Shown piece after piece: positions 1 through 4,333 of a stretch of 64,000 nucleotides of DNA. Both the position numbers and the translations under genes were made by a program. The notes under the pieces are model-generated. The model had not been told where the DNA came from and did no database searches. It worked only from the letters and a program-made list of their open reading frames with translations. Numbering within the stretch: position 1 is the stretch's first letter; each line of letters opens with the position of its first letter. This DNA comes from Arthrobacter gallicola (GTDB lineage Bacteria > Actinomycetota > Actinomycetes > Actinomycetales > Micrococcaceae), in the NCBI RefSeq assembly GCF_014836775.1, contig NZ_JACSQD010000008.1, forward strand, positions 124,001 through 188,000, read 5' to 3'.

Positions 1-189
1 GGAGAAGCTCCCGGGGTTCGTCAGCCCGTTATCAATAAGCACGCGCCAGGTTCTGGCGGCGATGTCCTGCTGGATGCGCTTGCCGAACAGCAGACTCGCC
101 AGGAACCAGCGGTACAGCTGATCGGGATCTCCACTGCCAAGGTCGATGCCAAGATCCCCGGGGGACAATTTGGGTTCGTTTGCCGCCAT
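1..189 (-). CDS. Probable HhH/endonuclease III-like protein, N-terminal part (runs off window)
   Basis: The reverse strand is open from an ATG at 189 to the window edge, giving 63 residues without a stop, starting MAANEPKLSPGDLGIDLGSG. The segment LYRWFLASLLFGKRIQQDIA followed by a helix ending in an Asn-Gly turn resembles the N-terminus of actinobacterial proteins annotated as DNA methylase or helix-hairpin-helix endonuclease III-like. That resemblance is from memory, not from a search. Most of the gene lies outside the window, so no catalytic residue can be checked. No strong ribosome binding site precedes the ATG. Codon use is typical of neighbouring genes. Confidence 0.5.
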   Translation of the reverse strand, partial: MAANEPKLSPGDLGIDLGSGDPDQLYRWFLASLLFGKRIQQDIAARTWRVLIDNGLTNPGSFS

Positions 190-249
190 ACAAGCCAACG
201 TACGCCCGCCGAAAGCGCTTCGGAAGGTACCCAGGCCTGCAGAAGAAAA

Positions 250-277
250 CTGCCGGCAGAGAGGAAACTGCCGGCAG
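250..277. repeat. Two copies of the palindrome CTGCCGGCAG
   Basis: The 10-bp palindrome CTGCCGGCAG occurs at 250-259 and again at 268-277, each preceded by GAAA or AAAA, with an 18-bp period. It lies upstream of the HhH-like gene start (189) and downstream of the first csp gene. It could be a regulator site or just hairpin-forming sequence; nothing decides between these. Confidence 0.4.
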
Positions 278-340
278 GGGGCGCAGGCTCACCAGCCATC
301 GGACCGGACAGCCGTACACGCACAGACAACTGGTTAAACC

Positions 341-374
341 ACAGGTGCAGGACGGTAAGCCGTCCTGCACCTGT
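341..374 (-). terminator. Hairpin terminator of the first csp gene
   Basis: Perfect 15-bp inverted repeat (341-355 with 360-374) around the loop TAAG, 37 bases past the csp stop codon in the direction of transcription. Only a short T-rich stretch follows. The core GCAGGACGG / CCGTCCTGC is shared with the hairpin after the second csp gene, which suggests the terminator was duplicated with its gene. Confidence 0.7.
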
Positions 375-410
375 GTCCAGCTGGCCCGTGAATGGGGCCG
401 GAAGCCTTGG

Positions 411-614
411 TTAGACAGGCTGGATGTTTACCGCCTGGGGGCCCTTGGGTCCCTGTTCGGTATCGAAGCTAACCTTCTGGTTCTCTTCGAGGGAGCGGTA
501 GCCGCTCGCGTTGATAGCGGAGTAGTGGGCGAAAACATCGGCGCTGCCGTCGTCGGGCTCGATGAAGCCAAAGCCCTTTTCAGCGTTAAACCATTTCACG
601 GTGCCAGTTGCCAT
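411..614 (-). CDS. csp: Cold-shock domain protein (copy 1)
   Basis: A 67-residue single cold-shock domain protein, the normal length of the CspA family. Such proteins bind single-stranded RNA/DNA and act as RNA chaperones or antiterminators in the cytoplasm. RNP1 (KGFGFI, residues 13-18) and RNP2 (VFAHY, 27-31) are intact. A second copy at 2777-2980 differs at only six positions. The ATG at 614 follows an AAGGA site nine bases upstream. The gene has its own sigma70-like promoter, a roughly 145-nt structured leader and a hairpin terminator, so it is monocistronic. The cold-shock or growth-phase role is family knowledge; the sequence cannot say which condition induces it. Confidence 0.95.
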
Positions 615-795
615 TTTTAATCATCCTTCTGAGGCGAAACAACCCCGACCGTCGGGGAGCTTCCAGTTGCTGTGCCGTTTACGGCCTTCTACAAAAAAAG
701 CGGCGTTGCCCTGGATCTGGGTTTCGGCCGCTTGGATACAAAATGCTCAACACAACAACTGCGGCTAGTATACACAGCGGCCGGGGAAGCGTCAC
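615..795 (-). promoter_or_regulatory. Promoter and structured 5' leader of csp copy 1
   Basis: Reading the minus strand, a -10 TATACT lies at 772-767 with a possible -35 GTGACG at 795-790 (17-bp spacer). The predicted leader of about 145 nt holds three ordered hairpins. First is AAGCGGC (733-727) pairing with GCCGCTT (704-698), followed by a run of T, which looks like an attenuator or terminator. Second is a small GCCGT/ACGGC hairpin. Third is a CCCCGA/TCGGGG hairpin (657-643) just upstream of the ribosome binding site. The same order and the same first stem recur upstream of csp copy 2. Confidence 0.65.
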
Positions 796-824
796 GGGTC
801 TTTTGACTCCCCTAGGCTGGAAAG

Positions 825-2639
825 ATGGACTCCCCGATCGAGCACTATCTGCAGCGCATCCACGCCGAGATTTCCGACCTAAAGGACGGGAAACCCTACA
901 GCTCCATCCCGGCCATGGCGAACGTTGACCCCAACCGCTTTGGCATTGTCCTCGCCACCGCTGACGGCTACGTCTACGAGGTGGGTGACACCCGGGAGGA
1001 ATTCAGCATCCAGTCAATTTCCAAACCGTTCACCTACGGACTGGCGCTGGCTGACCGCGGGATGGACGACGTCGATGCGAAGGTCGACGTCGAGCCCTCC
1101 GGCGATTCCTTCAATGAAATCTCCCTCGCCGAAGGAACCGGCCGGCCGGCCAACGCGATGATCAACGCGGGAGCCCTCACTGCCACCTCGCTGGTCCGCG
1201 GTTCCGGCGGCAACTCCCGTTTCAAACGGATCCTCAACACCTACTCGGCGTTCGCGGGCCGCCAGCTTTCCGTCAGCGAACGCATTTACCAGTCCGAGCT
1301 GAAGTACGGCCACCGCAACCATGCCCTGGCCTACCTGCTGCGCAGCTTCGACATCATCGAATCCGACCCGACGCCGGTGATCGAGGACTACTTCCGGCAG
1401 TGCTCCGTGATGGTGACGGCCCTGGACCTGGCCATGATGGCCGCCACGCTGGCCAACAGCGGCCGGAATCCCCTGAGCAACGAACAGGTGCTGGATATCG
1501 CCCCGGTGGAACGGGTCCTCTCCGTCATGGCGACCTGCGGCATGTATGACGACGCCGGCGCCTGGATGAGCAGTGTCGGGATGCCCGCCAAGTCCGGTGT
1601 AGGCGGGGGAACCATCGCCGTGCTGCCCGGACAGATTGGGCTGGCCGTCTACTCTCCGCCGCTGGATGCCCACGGCAGCAGCGTCCGCGGAGTCGCAGTC
1701 AGCCAGCGGCTCTCCCATGACCTCGAACTGCACTTTGTCCGCGCCGGGCGGACCGGACGTTCGGCACTCCGGGCCGCGTATGACATTGGGACCACGCCGT
1801 CGGGCATCCGCCGGAGCGAGGACGCCGCAGCGCTGCTGCGGGCCAACGCCCACCGCGCCCGTGTCCTGGAGCTCAACGGTGATCTGCTCTTTGCCGGAGC
1901 AGAAGCCATGGTGCGGGAACTTTCTTCCCTCCAGGACGACGTTGAGCTGGTGGTCCTGGATCTGCGCAGCGTGGACGAGGTCTCCGGCGTGGCGCTGCGG
2001 ATGTTCGCCGAGGCGGCACAGATGCTGACCGATTCCGGCAGGGCGCTGGCCATGGTGGATACGGTCGGTGACGTGGCGGCCGACCTCACCCGGAACGGGC
2101 ACCCGGTCCTCGCCTTTGGAACGCGGTCCGCCGCAGTGGAATGGTGCGAGGATGAGCTGCTGAGACGATACGGCGCGGACCTAATCCAGCCGGAGCGGAT
2201 TCTCCCGGCGGACTCCCCCGCCCTGGCCCCGCTGGGCCAGGAGGCCGCCGAGGACCTGGCCGGCCGGATGGAGGAACTCTCCTACGCCGACGGCGACGTC
2301 ATCCGCCGCATCGGCCAGCGGTTCAGCGGCGTGTACTTTATCAGCTCCGGATACGTGCAGACCCTGATGCCGGGGCCTGACGGGCAACGCGTGAAACTGA
2401 ACCGGCTGGGTGCCGGCATGACATTCGGCGAGATGGCGCTCGGCGACGACAAGCGCCAGGAAACCACGGTCAAGGCCGACGGCGAGGTCCAGGTATGGCG
2501 GCTTCCGGCTGAGGAGATCGCCCGGATGGAAGCCGACGAACCGAGGCTGGCCATGGCGTTCTGGCGTGCCCTGACCCAGGATGCCTACACCCGGGTGGAG
2601 CAGTATCTGCGCGAAACGGCTGTACGGGTCCAGGACTAG
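825..2639 (+). CDS. glsA: Glutaminase with C-terminal STAS and cyclic-nucleotide-binding domains
   Basis: A 604-residue protein, about twice the length of a simple glutaminase. Residues 1-310 are a serine-dependent beta-lactamase-like glutaminase that hydrolyses L-glutamine to glutamate and ammonia. The catalytic SISK motif is at 64-67 and KSGVGGG is near 255. Residues about 335-450 form a STAS-like domain (VLELNGDLLFAGAEAMVREL, LRSVDEVSGVALRMF). Residues about 470-590 form a cNMP-binding fold with the cassette-like FGEMALGDDKRQETTV near 535. The fused domains suggest activity or partner binding controlled by a nucleotide or anti-sigma-type signal, which is inference. The ATG at 825 follows GGAAAG. 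The gene lies between the two csp genes, opposite to them, and ends in a very strong hairpin. Confidence 0.93.
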   Translation: MDSPIEHYLQRIHAEISDLKDGKPYSSIPAMANVDPNRFGIVLATADGYVYEVGDTREEFSIQSISKPFTYGLALADRGMDDVDAKVDVEPSGDSFNEISLAEGTGRPANAMINAGALTATSLVRGSGGNSRFKRILNTYSAFAGRQLSVSERIYQSELKYGHRNHALAYLLRSFDIIESDPTPVIEDYFRQCSVMVTALDLAMMAATLANSGRNPLSNEQVLDIAPVERVLSVMATCGMYDDAGAWMSSVGMPAKSGVGGGTIAVLPGQIGLAVYSPPLDAHGSSVRGVAVSQRLSHDLELHFVRAGRTGRSALRAAYDIGTTPSGIRRSEDAAALLRANAHRARVLELNGDLLFAGAEAMVRELSSLQDDVELVVLDLRSVDEVSGVALRMFAEAAQMLTDSGRALAMVDTVGDVAADLTRNGHPVLAFGTRSAAVEWCEDELLRRYGADLIQPERILPADSPALAPLGQEAAEDLAGRMEELSYADGDVIRRIGQRFSGVYFISSGYVQTLMPGPDGQRVKLNRLGAGMTFGEMALGDDKRQETTVKADGEVQVWRLPAEEIARMEADEPRLAMAFWRALTQDAYTRVEQYLRETAVRVQD

Positions 2640-2640
2640 C

Positions 2641-2688
2641 TCCGGCTCCCTCTTCCTCCCCCTCATCGGGGAGGAAGAGGGAGCCGGG
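2641..2688 (+). terminator. Strong hairpin terminator after glutaminase
   Basis: A perfect 18-bp inverted repeat (2644-2661 with 2668-2685) around the six-base loop CTCATC, extendable by two or three pairs. It begins five bases after the glutaminase stop. No T-run follows directly; the next hairpin at 2700-2735 supplies one. Confidence 0.8.
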
Positions 2689-2699
2689 AGAGCTTAAAC

Positions 2700-2738
2700 A
2701 AGAAGAGCAGGACGGTTGCCCGTCCTGCTCTTCTTTTT
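2700..2738. terminator. Bidirectional hairpin between glutaminase and csp copy 2
   Basis: A perfect 16-bp stem (2700-2715 with 2720-2735) around loop TTGC, followed on the plus strand by TTT. On the minus strand it lies 39 bases past the csp copy 2 stop. It probably terminates both convergent genes. It shares the core GCAGGACGG / CCGTCCTGC with the csp copy 1 terminator. Confidence 0.8.
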
Positions 2739-2776
2739 AGATACCTGCCTTTACGGCGGTGTCTAGGCTTCTGAAA

Positions 2777-2980
2777 TTAGAGGCCCTGAATGTTCGTGGC
2801 CTGCGGACCCTTGGGGCCTTGCTCGGTGTCGAAGGAGACCTTCTGGTTCTCTTCGAGGGACTTGTAGCCGCTGGAGTTGATAGCGGAGTAGTGAGCGAAG
2901 ACGTCGGCGCTGCCGTCGTCCGGCTCAATGAAGCCGAAGCCCTTTTCGGAGTTGAACCACTTCACGGTACCTGTAGCCAT
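2777..2980 (-). CDS. csp: Cold-shock domain protein (copy 2)
   Basis: A 67-residue single cold-shock domain protein with RNP1 KGFGFI (13-18) and RNP2 VFAHY (27-31). It is 61/67 identical to copy 1 at 411-614; the changes are conservative (A11S, A36S, R40K) or at the C-terminus. It has the same orientation, a leader with matching hairpins and a terminator with a shared core, so the whole transcription unit was duplicated. The divergence is enough that both copies are probably kept for use. Role as in copy 1: RNA chaperone by family membership. Confidence 0.95.
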
Positions 2981-3161
2981 TTTTAATACTTCTTTCTGCT
3001 CGAAACCGTTCCCGACTTTCGGGGGGTTTCAGTCGCGGTGTCCGTTTTTACCGCTTCTACAGAAAAAGCGGCTAGCCCGTCTGGGTTTCGCCGCTTGAAA
3101 TACAAAACGCGCAACACAACAACTGAAAAAGACTATACACGACTCCCGCCGGGTGTGCTAA
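2981..3161 (-). promoter_or_regulatory. Promoter and structured 5' leader of csp copy 2
   Basis: On the minus strand a -10 TATAGT is at 3137-3132 with a weak TTAGCA -35 (3161-3156, 18-bp spacer). The leader repeats the copy 1 architecture. The segment near the predicted start, GTTGTTGTGTTG, is identical. AAGCGGC (3096-3090) pairs with GCCGCTT (3072-3066) followed by a T-rich run. The last hairpin CCCGA/TCGGG (3023-3011) sits before the ribosome site. Stems are kept while loops and spacers differ from copy 1, which points to selection on RNA structure. Confidence 0.65.
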
Positions 3162-3210
3162 TCCCGGTTTCCCTACCCGCCCTGCCCGCGTCCATGTGGG
3201 CGTCCCGGTG

Positions 3211-3756
3211 CTACTCCGGCTGCAGCAGTTCAGCCGGGATCTTCGCCCGGTCACGGACCCGTCGCAGGAGGACCCTGTCGATCGGAAGCCCCCGGCGGAG
3301 CACACTGACATCCCCGGTTGGTTCCAGGATGACGAGAGCGACTTCGGAGAAGTTCCTGATCCCGGCCTGCCGGAGCTTGAAGTACAGCTCGTCTTCCTGG
3401 ATCCGTGCCTGCCGCAGTCCGCGGGCCAGGATCTGGTCCCCGGCCATCAGCAGGATCGGCCGGCTGCTTAGATACGATCCGCGCTTGGTCCGCCGCAGGT
3501 AGGCCTCCAGCCGCAGCATTCCGAACATGGTTGCCAGCCCGATGATGCCTGCCGTCAGCGTGGGCGTGTACCCGAGCACCACCCGCCCCAGGACCGCTCC
3601 CAGGGCAATGACTATCGCCTTGTCCATTGTCGACCAGCTGGCCAGCGCACGCTGCCCGAAGCCCCGGACCAACAGGAAAAAGGCGAGATAGATACCCAAG
3701 GCCGACAGAACGACCCAGAGCGCTTCAAGAGGCGAAATTCCAAGGCTGTGCCACAC
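3211..3756 (-). CDS. DUF421 (YetF-type) membrane protein
   Basis: A 181-residue protein. The first 85 or so residues contain three hydrophobic helices (LEALWVVLSALGIYLAFFLL, a second around AIVIALGAVLGRVVLG, a third around LTAGIIGLATMFGML). The soluble C-terminal half has the typical pattern of YetF proteins: PILLMAGDQILARGLRQARI, ELYFKLRQAGI, then a strand-rich segment ending LRRGLPI. The family is membrane-bound and its biochemical role is unknown. It appears to be a single-gene unit between csp copy 2 and the thioesterase, reading the same way as both. Confidence 0.85.
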   Translation of the reverse strand: MWHSLGISPLEALWVVLSALGIYLAFFLLVRGFGQRALASWSTMDKAIVIALGAVLGRVVLGYTPTLTAGIIGLATMFGMLRLEAYLRRTKRGSYLSSRPILLMAGDQILARGLRQARIQEDELYFKLRQAGIRNFSEVALVILEPTGDVSVLRRGLPIDRVLLRRVRDRAKIPAELLQPE

Positions 3757-3862
3757 GGCGGATCTCCTATCGGGTGCACCTGTCCCCCGTCAGCTCAGGT
3801 TAGCCCCATGCCCCGGCCCGGGGCACCGCCTTTCCTTCCGGGATCCCCGCCCGGTTGCCCGC

Positions 3863-4333
3863 TTAAGCGAAAACCGAGTCCCCGGCCCAGGGACGGACCA
3901 GCTCGCGCTGTTCCTCGCTGACCCGCAGCAGGCGTCCGGAGACACCGTCCACGAAGGCCAGCGTTGTTTCCGCCTTGACACACGGCACACCCGTTACGGG
4001 ATCGGACACCAGGTAGGAGATACCCAGGCTCGCACCCTTAATGGAGCTGATCCAGATGTCCACATCGGCAGGGATGTTGCGGTACTCCAGCGGGGCCAGG
4101 TACTTCACCCGGTGCTCAGAAACGAGGGACTGCGCGTTGGCCGGGACAGCGTTGAACAGTGCGATCGGCGGCTCTGCGCCCGGCGCACCGGTCCCGCCGG
4201 GCGGACCGAAGGCCAGAATGCGGGCTTCTTCCAGCATGCGCAGGACTTCCACGTTATTGATGTGCCCGTAGGCGTCCATGTCCGACCACCGCATGGGCAC
4301 GTGCACACGGATGGCCTGGGAAGAGTTCGTCAT
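3863..4333 (-). CDS. Hotdog-fold acyl-CoA thioesterase (4HBT / YbgC-FadM type)
   Basis: A 156-residue hotdog thioesterase starting MTNSSQAIRVHVPMRWSDMD. The motif SDMDAYGHINNVEVLRMLEE matches the catalytic D-x-D-x-x-G-H-x-N-N signature of 4-hydroxybenzoyl-CoA-like thioesterases. The enzyme would hydrolyse acyl-CoA thioesters in the cytoplasm; the acyl group cannot be told from sequence. The frame stays open 28 codons further upstream, but that extension is GC-rich, proline/arginine-biased and overlaps a hairpin. The ATG at 4333 is therefore preferred and fits the family length. Confidence 0.88.
   Translation of the reverse strand: MTNSSQAIRVHVPMRWSDMDAYGHINNVEVLRMLEEARILAFGPPGGTGAPGAEPPIALFNAVPANAQSLVSEHRVKYLAPLEYRNIPADVDIWISSIKGASLGISYLVSDPVTGVPCVKAETTLAFVDGVSGRLLRVSEEQRELVRPWAGDSVFA

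Follow-up and report, generated by a model that had tools for sequence, protein, structure and literature searches.

Two cold-shock genes, csp1 and csp2, lie on the minus strand near the start of the window, the 64,000-nucleotide stretch of DNA analysed here, and both are preceded by long leaders of similar design. The locus raises the question of whether these leaders represent a functional RNA element and, if so, whether such an element would act on transcription, on translation or as a static structure.

Two csp genes with a common leader layout

The proteins Csp1 and Csp2 are 94% identical across 65 residues; the positions of the genes and their leader parts are collected in Table 1. The host is a soil actinobacterium. 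An unrelated glutaminase gene on the plus strand (825–2639) is also located inside the span 411–3161, which corrects the preliminary description. Two sigma-70-like promoters were found in positions 1–4000, as compared to 0.7 expected from shuffled sequences, each of them directly upstream of one csp leader. The 5' segment that is identical in the two leaders starts 6–7 nt past the end of the -10 box, which is the predicted position of the transcription start.

The order of elements is common to both leaders and consists of a 14-nt 5' box, stem P1, U-rich RNA, a conserved middle segment, hairpin P3 and the ribosome site. This agrees with the preliminary description, which had claimed leaders of about 145 nt with shared elements, including an AAGCGGC/GCCGCTT stem followed by T-rich sequence. 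The first 14 nucleotides (CAGTTGTTGTGTTG) are identical in the csp1 and csp2 leaders, and these are the only two occurrences in the whole genome. In the last hairpin, csp1 has CCCCGA-CGG-TCGGGG where csp2 has CCCGA-AAG-TCGGG, confirming that the loop differs while the stem is kept. Compared with dinucleotide shuffles, the folding of the csp1 leader gave a z score of −3.06 (3 of 200 shuffles as good) and that of the csp2 leader −2.47 (2 of 200).

Table 1. Positions of the csp genes, their putative promoters and the parts of their leaders in the window.
Feature	Position	Strand	Description
csp1 ORF	411–614	minus	67 aa, cold-shock domain; Pfam CSD match
csp1 Shine-Dalgarno region	624–631	minus	CAGAAGGA
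csp1 hairpin P3	636–663	minus	
csp1 middle segment	664–677	minus	CGGCACAGCAACTG, predicted partner of 5' box (open state)
csp1 U-rich segment	692–699	minus	TTTTTTTG, terminator-like tail and anti-SD; predicted duplex, tail criterion
csp1 stem P1	698–733	minus	AAGCGGC...GCCGCTT
csp1 5' box	748–761	minus	CAGTTGTTGTGTTG, complementary to csp1 middle segment
csp1 leader RNA	615–761	minus	147 nt; covariance model R1 match, 98.6 bits
csp1 promoter	767–795	minus	sigma-70-like, GTGACG-17-TATACT; match to consensus alone
csp2 ORF	2777–2980	minus	67 aa, cold-shock domain; Pfam CSD match
csp2 Shine-Dalgarno region	2990–2998	minus	CAGAAAGAA
csp2 hairpin P3	3002–3030	minus	
csp2 middle segment	3030–3043	minus	GGACACCGCGACTG
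csp2 U-rich segment	3060–3067	minus	TTTTTCTG, terminator-like tail and anti-SD; predicted duplex, tail criterion
csp2 stem P1	3066–3096	minus	AAGCGGC/GCCGCTT
csp2 5' box	3112–3125	minus	CAGTTGTTGTGTTG
csp2 leader RNA	2981–3125	minus	145 nt; R1 match, 132.3 bits over 2982–3125
csp2 promoter	3132–3161	minus	sigma-70-like, TTAGCA-18-TATAGT; match to consensus alone

Distribution and comparative analysis of the helices

Similar leaders were found upstream of cold-shock genes in many relatives. The covariance model built here matched 46 of 120 genomes of the family Micrococcaceae. Of the distinct R1 leaders, all 75 whose downstream DNA could be read were followed by a csp ORF, many of these loci having been preselected by csp similarity; of the 34 distinct R2 matches, 33 were. 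The 75 leaders formed 32 clusters at 0.78 identity; leader L186 (1501–1641), with masked downstream DNA, was excluded from the cluster counts, and the two weakest model matches (G056:C4 and G066:C2) lay outside the matches examined. The range of R1 does not extend to Streptomyces, f22 or the three remaining csp genes in this genome, the 33 loci searched having given two weak matches (13.5 and 13 bits). Rfam 15 gave no gathering-level match anywhere in the whole window. The cspA thermoregulator model, RF01766, gave scores of 64.5 and 39.9 bits at the two loci, which is under the curated 78-bit cut-off for membership, and over half of each sub-threshold match (2701–3073 and 413–704) is ORF.

The preliminary description had regarded the leaders as a real RNA element with covarying stems, and had proposed a covariance model and a covariation analysis across the Micrococcaceae. 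Both the model matches and the compensatory changes in P1 and P3 bear this out. In alignment A4, for which 76 distinct leaders were fitted to the model and which, like other fitted alignments, tends to favour it, 81.6% of the cells pair and 23 of 27 pairs have changed on both sides, a result reached by none of 500 shuffles. Compensatory double changes occurred repeatedly on the tree, with 11 events in P1, 10 in the outer and 5 in the inner part of P3, as compared to a 99th percentile of 3–4 for random column pairs. When partners were permuted within the helix, the means were 3.3, 2.7 and 1.0, and the maxima 13, 8 and 5, respectively. The unfitted MAFFT alignment yielded few events (2, 2 and 3 in the same order). 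In a G-test/APC ranking of this raw alignment the top pair belonged to P1 (37:80), followed mostly by pairs of columns that are not base pairs. Helix P2 (GCGG:CCGC) was own-specific in one test (p = 0.015) and was rejected as a conserved structure, its covariation being no better than that of shuffles.

Helix P4, in which the U-rich segment acts as an anti-SD by pairing with the Shine-Dalgarno (SD) region, was analysed by swap tests; the permutation p-values are optimistic because the leaders are related. Among 32 Micrococcaceae clusters, the own anti-SD:SD duplex was stronger on average (p = 0.0055, one of ten pairings, uncorrected), exceeding the mean of the others in 18 of 32. The same was observed for 17 leaders outside the family (p = 0.0006; own stronger in 9 of 17) and for a slightly different set, chosen by eye and including one leader from the family (p = 0.0008). 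As the own partner was ahead in no more than roughly half of the leaders, only part of them carries the signal. In 12 clusters without an R2 training member, the own duplex reached −17.8 kcal/mol as compared to −13.7 kcal/mol for swapped ones (11 of 12, p = 0.0002), the model used for finding them containing P4. On the tree, P4 showed 5 compensatory events, with 0–1 in slid controls and a mean of 0.8 (maximum 5) for permuted partners; on the unfitted alignment there was one event, under the random 99th percentile of 4. As no single P4 register could be obtained for the mixed-family alignment A5, A6 was used instead. In alignment A7, 17 of 21 pairs changed on both sides, which none of 500 shuffles reached. 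Relative to shuffled leaders, accessibility of the SD was reduced (Wilcoxon p = 0.018), with lower values for 20 of the 32 clusters and no reduction for the other 12; accessibility of the start codon showed no overall reduction relative to shuffles (p = 0.32, 32 clusters). An upstream segment considered as partner of the anti-SD was rejected (p = 0.25). The swap tests support anti-SD:SD pairing in the Micrococcaceae and in other Micrococcales, and P1, P3 and the own-specific anti-SD/SD complementarity all appear to be supported by comparison.

The pairing of the 5' box with the middle segment was own-specific within the Micrococcaceae (p = 0.009) but not beyond them (p = 0.38, or 0.45 in a slightly different set), and the tree showed only 2 compensatory events for it. 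Comparison thus seems to provide weaker support for this open alternative than for the anti-SD:SD pairing. The box and the start-codon region are complementary in many leaders, but with neither covariation nor own-specificity (p = 0.9955); this helix was rejected as a conserved structure and is retained in the closed fold as a prediction only.

Predicted folds and rival explanations

On balance, we lean towards the reading that the leader is a cis-acting element of the csp mRNA that controls translation via two mutually exclusive folds, that is, a translational cold-shock leader switch. In the open fold, the 5' box would pair with the middle segment, P1 would be formed and the SD region would be free. 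In the closed fold, the U-rich segment after P1 would pair with the SD region to form helix P4, with P3 lying inside it, and the start-codon region would be paired with the 5' box. During transcription, the open fold could come first and be replaced after the first codons have been made. With regard to temperature response and Csp feedback, we infer that slow refolding in the cold would leave the mRNA in its open state, allowing Csp to be produced, and that this protein, as an RNA chaperone, would in turn accelerate closure.

Bistability and the difference between the paralogues are seen only in the folding predictions. Leaders of the csp2 type were predicted to be open up to transcription of the start codon and closed afterwards, and a flip at the start codon was obtained in 13 of 32 clusters as compared to 39 of 480 shuffles. 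In csp1-type leaders, the SD was predicted to be open at every length tested, and it stayed open in 6 of 6 genomes of the same genus. In all six, the predicted probability that the SD is unpaired at 10 and 30 °C was 0.01–0.16 for csp2 and 0.67–0.78 for csp1. The calculated dG(open)−dG(closed) of the window leaders from 5 to 37 °C was +3.5 to +4.2 kcal/mol for csp2 and −3.7 to −2.3 kcal/mol for csp1, in a comparison that excluded L183 (misregistered) and four leaders with fewer than 4 core pairs. The start codon was predicted to be mostly paired in the csp1-type leaders of G080 and G117 (unpaired 0.10–0.25), so "open" refers there to the SD only. By these predictions, csp1 would be set towards the open and csp2 towards the closed fold, and the duplicated pair would constitute a natural experiment, with nearly the same protein, the same leader layout and default states of the ribosome site that are predicted to be opposite.

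A static leader without regulated switching, in which P1 and P3 would serve mRNA stability or ribosome docking and the long-range complementarities would be incidental or do no more than adjust basal translation, would be consistent with the concentration of compensatory events in P1 and P3, with the predicted open SD of csp1-type leaders and with the lack of a temperature response in equilibrium folding. The predicted SD accessibility was nearly flat between 5 and 42 °C in both window leaders, a result by which a simple melting thermometer was rejected. We nevertheless consider a static leader distinctly unlikely, since the own-specific anti-SD:SD pairing within and beyond the family and the enrichment of the fold flip over shuffles both argue against it.

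The preliminary description had also noted that the first stem resembles a terminator, suggesting attenuation or antitermination. P1 and the U tract would then form an intrinsic terminator that stops some transcripts, and cold or Csp binding would lead to read-through. The resemblance holds for both window leaders, in which the hairpin and U-tail criterion selects P1 in csp1 (−14.1 kcal/mol) and csp2 (−15.8 kcal/mol), and such hairpins were found in 14 of the 32 cluster representatives of the Micrococcaceae versus 10 of 96 Markov-shuffled sequences; for other Micrococcales, the corresponding counts were 9 of 27 and 5 of 81. It does not extend to the orthologous leaders in general: the frequency in the clusters is above that of shuffles yet not general, only 16 of the 32 clusters have a U run of at least 4, and the Streptomycetaceae (11 of 22 versus 24 of 66 shuffled) are not clearly higher. 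P1 is also absent from a hairpin scan of the window limited to loops of 3–8. In some leaders, an alternative local hairpin between the 3' arm of P1 and a downstream AAGCGG can be recognised by eye, but it lacks own-specific complementarity (p = 0.97) and was rejected as a conserved antiterminator. Attenuation is possible, though doubtful, and could coexist with a translational switch because one U-rich segment serves both. The own anti-SD:SD complementarity is better kept than the U tract, which points to translation.

The translational switch can be extended to a broader scenario, which we regard as speculative and unlikely. The csp leaders of the Micrococcales would form a family that senses cold by the speed of refolding, not by stability. 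The open fold would come first on the growing transcript, and the emerging first codons would trigger closure, removing both SD and start codon. One duplicate would have lost SD closure and provide a constant supply, and the other would be the cold- or Csp-controlled copy.

Comparison with known csp leaders

In the parts of the literature available to us, the csp leader switches described are from Proteobacteria and Firmicutes. If the translational switch is true, the leaders in the window would add a described actinobacterial csp leader, without an Rfam 15 match at curated cut-offs and with clear parts for mutation. The cspB and cspC thermoswitches of Staphylococcus aureus (Catalan-Moreno 2021) reportedly use alternative folds that either block or expose the csp ribosome site.

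Some known leaders were compared by description. In Bacillus subtilis, suppressor point mutations lie in or very near one of the cspB/cspC cold-shock boxes (PMC8307031); these are likewise conserved segments in csp 5' UTRs, although they are a Firmicutes element, unlike the actinobacterial leaders in the window. For Corynebacterium glutamicum cg0215 (cspA), the excerpts describe a long leader determined by RNA-seq (186,328–186,508) and a weak RF01766 match of 60.19 bits, the basis of its RNA thermometer label, and contain neither an alignment nor covariation (PMC3890552, PMC4046766). What it shares with the window leaders is an actinobacterial csp gene, a long leader and a weak match to RF01766.

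The Listeria monocytogenes cspA thermosensor is a 101-nt 5' UTR in which the rearrangement follows temperature, as observed in vivo and in vitro (PMC8079631). It is also a csp leader with the SD paired in one conformation and free in the other, the latter having a hairpin in the distal 5' UTR (PMC8079631). The Listeria leader is described as responding to temperature itself, whereas equilibrium folding predicts no response for the window leaders. The E. coli cspA leader (RF01766) is similarly long and structured and has two exclusive folds, one exposing the initiation region more than the other (PMC9450479), although the window leaders score below the cut-off of its model. The switch proposed for the window leaders may thus be read as analogous to the Listeria and E. 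coli cspA switches.

The csp genes and their leaders

A plus-strand glutaminase gene lies between the two paralogous cold-shock genes, csp1 and csp2, whose proteins are 94% identical. The csp leaders run from a common 5' box, CAGTTGTTGTGTTG, through stem P1, a U-rich segment (anti-SD), a middle segment and hairpin P3 to the Shine-Dalgarno (SD) sequence. Only two sigma-70-like promoters were found in 1-4000. Because both end 6-7 nt ahead of the first base of the box, the box is probably the mRNA 5' end, as predicted from sequence. A TANNNT hexamer ends 5-10 nt 5' of the box in 68 of 72 distinct csp leaders, as compared to 2 with shuffled upstream letters; these leaders were collected by the box pattern and include Streptomyces leaders with AGTTGCAGTTT.

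Positions of csp features in the window, and of CSD matches within long frames of other genomes
Feature	Position	Strand	Remark
csp1 ORF	411-614	-	
csp1 leader	615-761	-	
csp2 ORF	2777-2980	-	
csp2 leader	2981-3125	-	
Gene between csp1 and csp2	825-2639	+	604-aa protein
Long near-perfect hairpin	341-377		by eye
Long near-perfect hairpin	2640-2690		by eye; sub-threshold Rfam miRNA matches
Long near-perfect hairpin	2697-2738		by eye
CSD match in long frame	G160:C1:3132562-3133476		
CSD match in long frame	G293:C14:33295-34227		
CSD match in long frame	G253:C12:226171-227100		
CSD match in long frame	G214:C15:51737-52723		
CSD match in long frame	G125:C9:111781-112620		

In the protein encoded between csp1 and csp2, a glutaminase domain is fused to STAS and cyclic-nucleotide-binding domains. 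The hairpins 3' of both csp genes have a common core, CAGGACGG...CCGTCCTG; they are possible terminators.

Csp upstream regions were gathered from named contigs and family genomes, and 36 aligned leaders (alignment A3) gave the covariance model R1, which scored 132.3 bits at csp2 and 98.6 bits at csp1. The genome has five CSD genes; the exact box occurs on csp1 and csp2 only, and R1 had no match at the loci of the other three. Matches were obtained in 46/120 family genomes (14/32 genera) and 21/248 order genomes. Ten of the R1-positive order genomes lie outside the family; nine of their matches, including that in G315, are directly upstream of csp, and the match in G184 has no csp gene directly downstream. 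Among 82 aligned matches (76 distinct), a csp ORF starts after all 75 with readable downstream DNA, a count that is partly circular since many loci were picked by csp similarity. The leaders had no Rfam match at curated cut-offs; scores of the cspA thermoregulator RF01766 were sub-threshold, with alignments mostly through the ORF.

Several other csp loci were observed. Leader copies occur in twos, ~480-670 bases apart on one strand, in three genomes (G098:C43, G115:C2 and G056:C15), which suggests tandem csp genes with one leader each. Several CSD matches in other Micrococcales families fall inside single open frames of ~360-820 aa, possibly multi-CSD proteins. GTCTTTG or GTCTTG occurs near the 5' end of L001, the leader of another csp gene of this genome, and of several of the leaders L253-L319; it resembles the binding motif of B. 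subtilis CspB, a hint of possible Csp autoregulation. A GTTG box preceded by a -10-like element likewise opens the Streptomyces csp leaders L044-L073, and a stem with a U tail is present in about half of them. On six Streptomycetaceae loci, R1 gave no csp-leader match.

Conservation of the leader helices

The preliminary description read the conserved stems as suggesting a real RNA element and proposed a covariation analysis of csp upstream regions across the family. That analysis supports this reading for P1 and P3, which are well supported as conserved helices by compensatory changes on a tree. In the alignment A4, fitted to P1, P3 and P4, 81.6% of cells were paired, as compared to 72.0% when shuffled and at most 56.6% with slid partners, and 23/27 pairs changed on both sides. 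Slid-partner controls on the tree reached at most 3 events.

Compensatory events per helix on the fitted (A4) and unfitted (A2) alignments, with A4 controls: random column pairs and 300 permutations of partners within the helix
Helix	A4	Random 99th percentile	Permuted mean	Permuted maximum	A2
P1	11	4	3.3	13	2
P1 inner	6	3	2.7	6	
P3 outer	10	3	2.7	8	2 (slid up to 3)
P3 inner	5	3	1.0	5	3
P4 (anti-SD:SD)	5	3	0.8	5	1
box:mid	2	6	0.7	4	1
box:start					0

Events were few on the unfitted MAFFT alignment A2, where only P3 inner exceeded its random 99th percentile. P4 pairing on A2 reached 83.2% of cells versus 79.9% shuffled, with 0/500 shuffles as high, and box:mid reached 78.2% versus 75.9%. As conserved helices, P4 is moderately and box:mid weakly supported by the sequence comparison. 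Pairing of box:start was no higher than in shuffles (79.5% versus 79.8%), which, with the lack of events, leaves this helix unsupported.

Predicted pairing of the U-rich segment

Across the 32 family clusters, in a swap test covering ten pairings, the leaders' own anti-SD:SD duplex was on average stronger (-8.04) than swapped duplexes (-6.99; p=0.0055), with the own duplex ahead in 18/32. Outside the family, in leaders picked by eye and quite unlike family leaders, the values were -16.64 and -14.56 (p=0.0006; 9/17 leaders), and four other pairings gave p 0.30-0.48. A similar set including one family leader gave p=0.0008.

A second model, R2, was trained on 15 leaders from outside the family. 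Counting weak matches, it was found in 47/248 order genomes (30/85 genera), and in only 8/246 class genomes. A csp gene lies downstream of 33/34 distinct matches (E up to 0.0001, fetched loci), in which 17/21 pairs changed on both sides. R2 also matched exactly at the csp2 leader of G032, from the window's genus (E=0.0049); family matches of similar strength (G009:C12, G057:C3) lie away from recognised leaders, and the window's own leaders are absent from the R2 matches listed. In 12 R2 clusters without a training member, only partly independent since R2 includes P4, the own duplex was stronger in 11 (p=0.0002); stricter clustering gave 6/6 (p=0.007).

Complementarity to the SD is one constraint on the U-rich segment. 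The segment also follows P1 and resembles a terminator tail, and the first stem had been described as terminator-like. A hairpin with a U tail was commoner than chance in Micrococcales, in 14/32 Micrococcaceae cluster representatives versus 10/96 Markov-shuffled sequences and in 9/27 versus 5/81 for other Micrococcales, but at 14/32 clusters it is not general. The Streptomycetaceae values were 11/22 versus 24/66. Attenuation at P1 may coexist with a translational switch, which is our best reading of the csp leaders.

Predicted folds and known systems

In such a translational switch, the nascent leader would take the open fold (box:mid) first, and would then be closed by P4 and box:start pairing; cold would slow closure and Csp would speed it. 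In folding predictions, the csp2 leader without its ORF had an open minimum-energy fold and a closed centroid, and adding the ORF start made P4 and box:start prevail. When five csp2-like leaders were folded by length, box:mid led until about the start codon and had almost vanished once 12 nt of the ORF were included. Among the 32 cluster representatives, box:mid exceeded 0.4 in 21 before the SD was transcribed and in 6 after the start, where P4 exceeded 0.4 in 15. In 13/32 representatives, as compared to 39/480 shuffled leaders, the box was predicted to change partners, leaving an upstream one for one in the start region.

The SD of csp1-type leaders is predicted to stay open. In 6/6 same-genus genomes, which are related and two of which have one csp2 leader sequence in common, csp2 was predicted closed and csp1 open at both 10 and 30 C; the csp1 start codon was mostly paired in two of them. 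Equilibrium folding displayed no temperature effect. Across the 32 clusters, predicted accessibility of the SD, positioned by best motif match, was below that of shuffles (p=0.018; lower in 20/32), and that of the start codon was not (p=0.32).

The literature searched, with most subscription journals outside its scope, gave no structural account of an actinobacterial csp leader switch, and the csp terms sought were absent from the main text of a Streptomyces ncRNA survey (PMC3765725). Among the described csp leaders consulted, the closest analogue is the Listeria cspA thermosensor (PMC8079631); the others are those of E. coli cspA (PMC9450479) and C. glutamicum cg0215 (PMC3890552, PMC4046766), and the cold-shock boxes of B. 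subtilis (PMC8307031).
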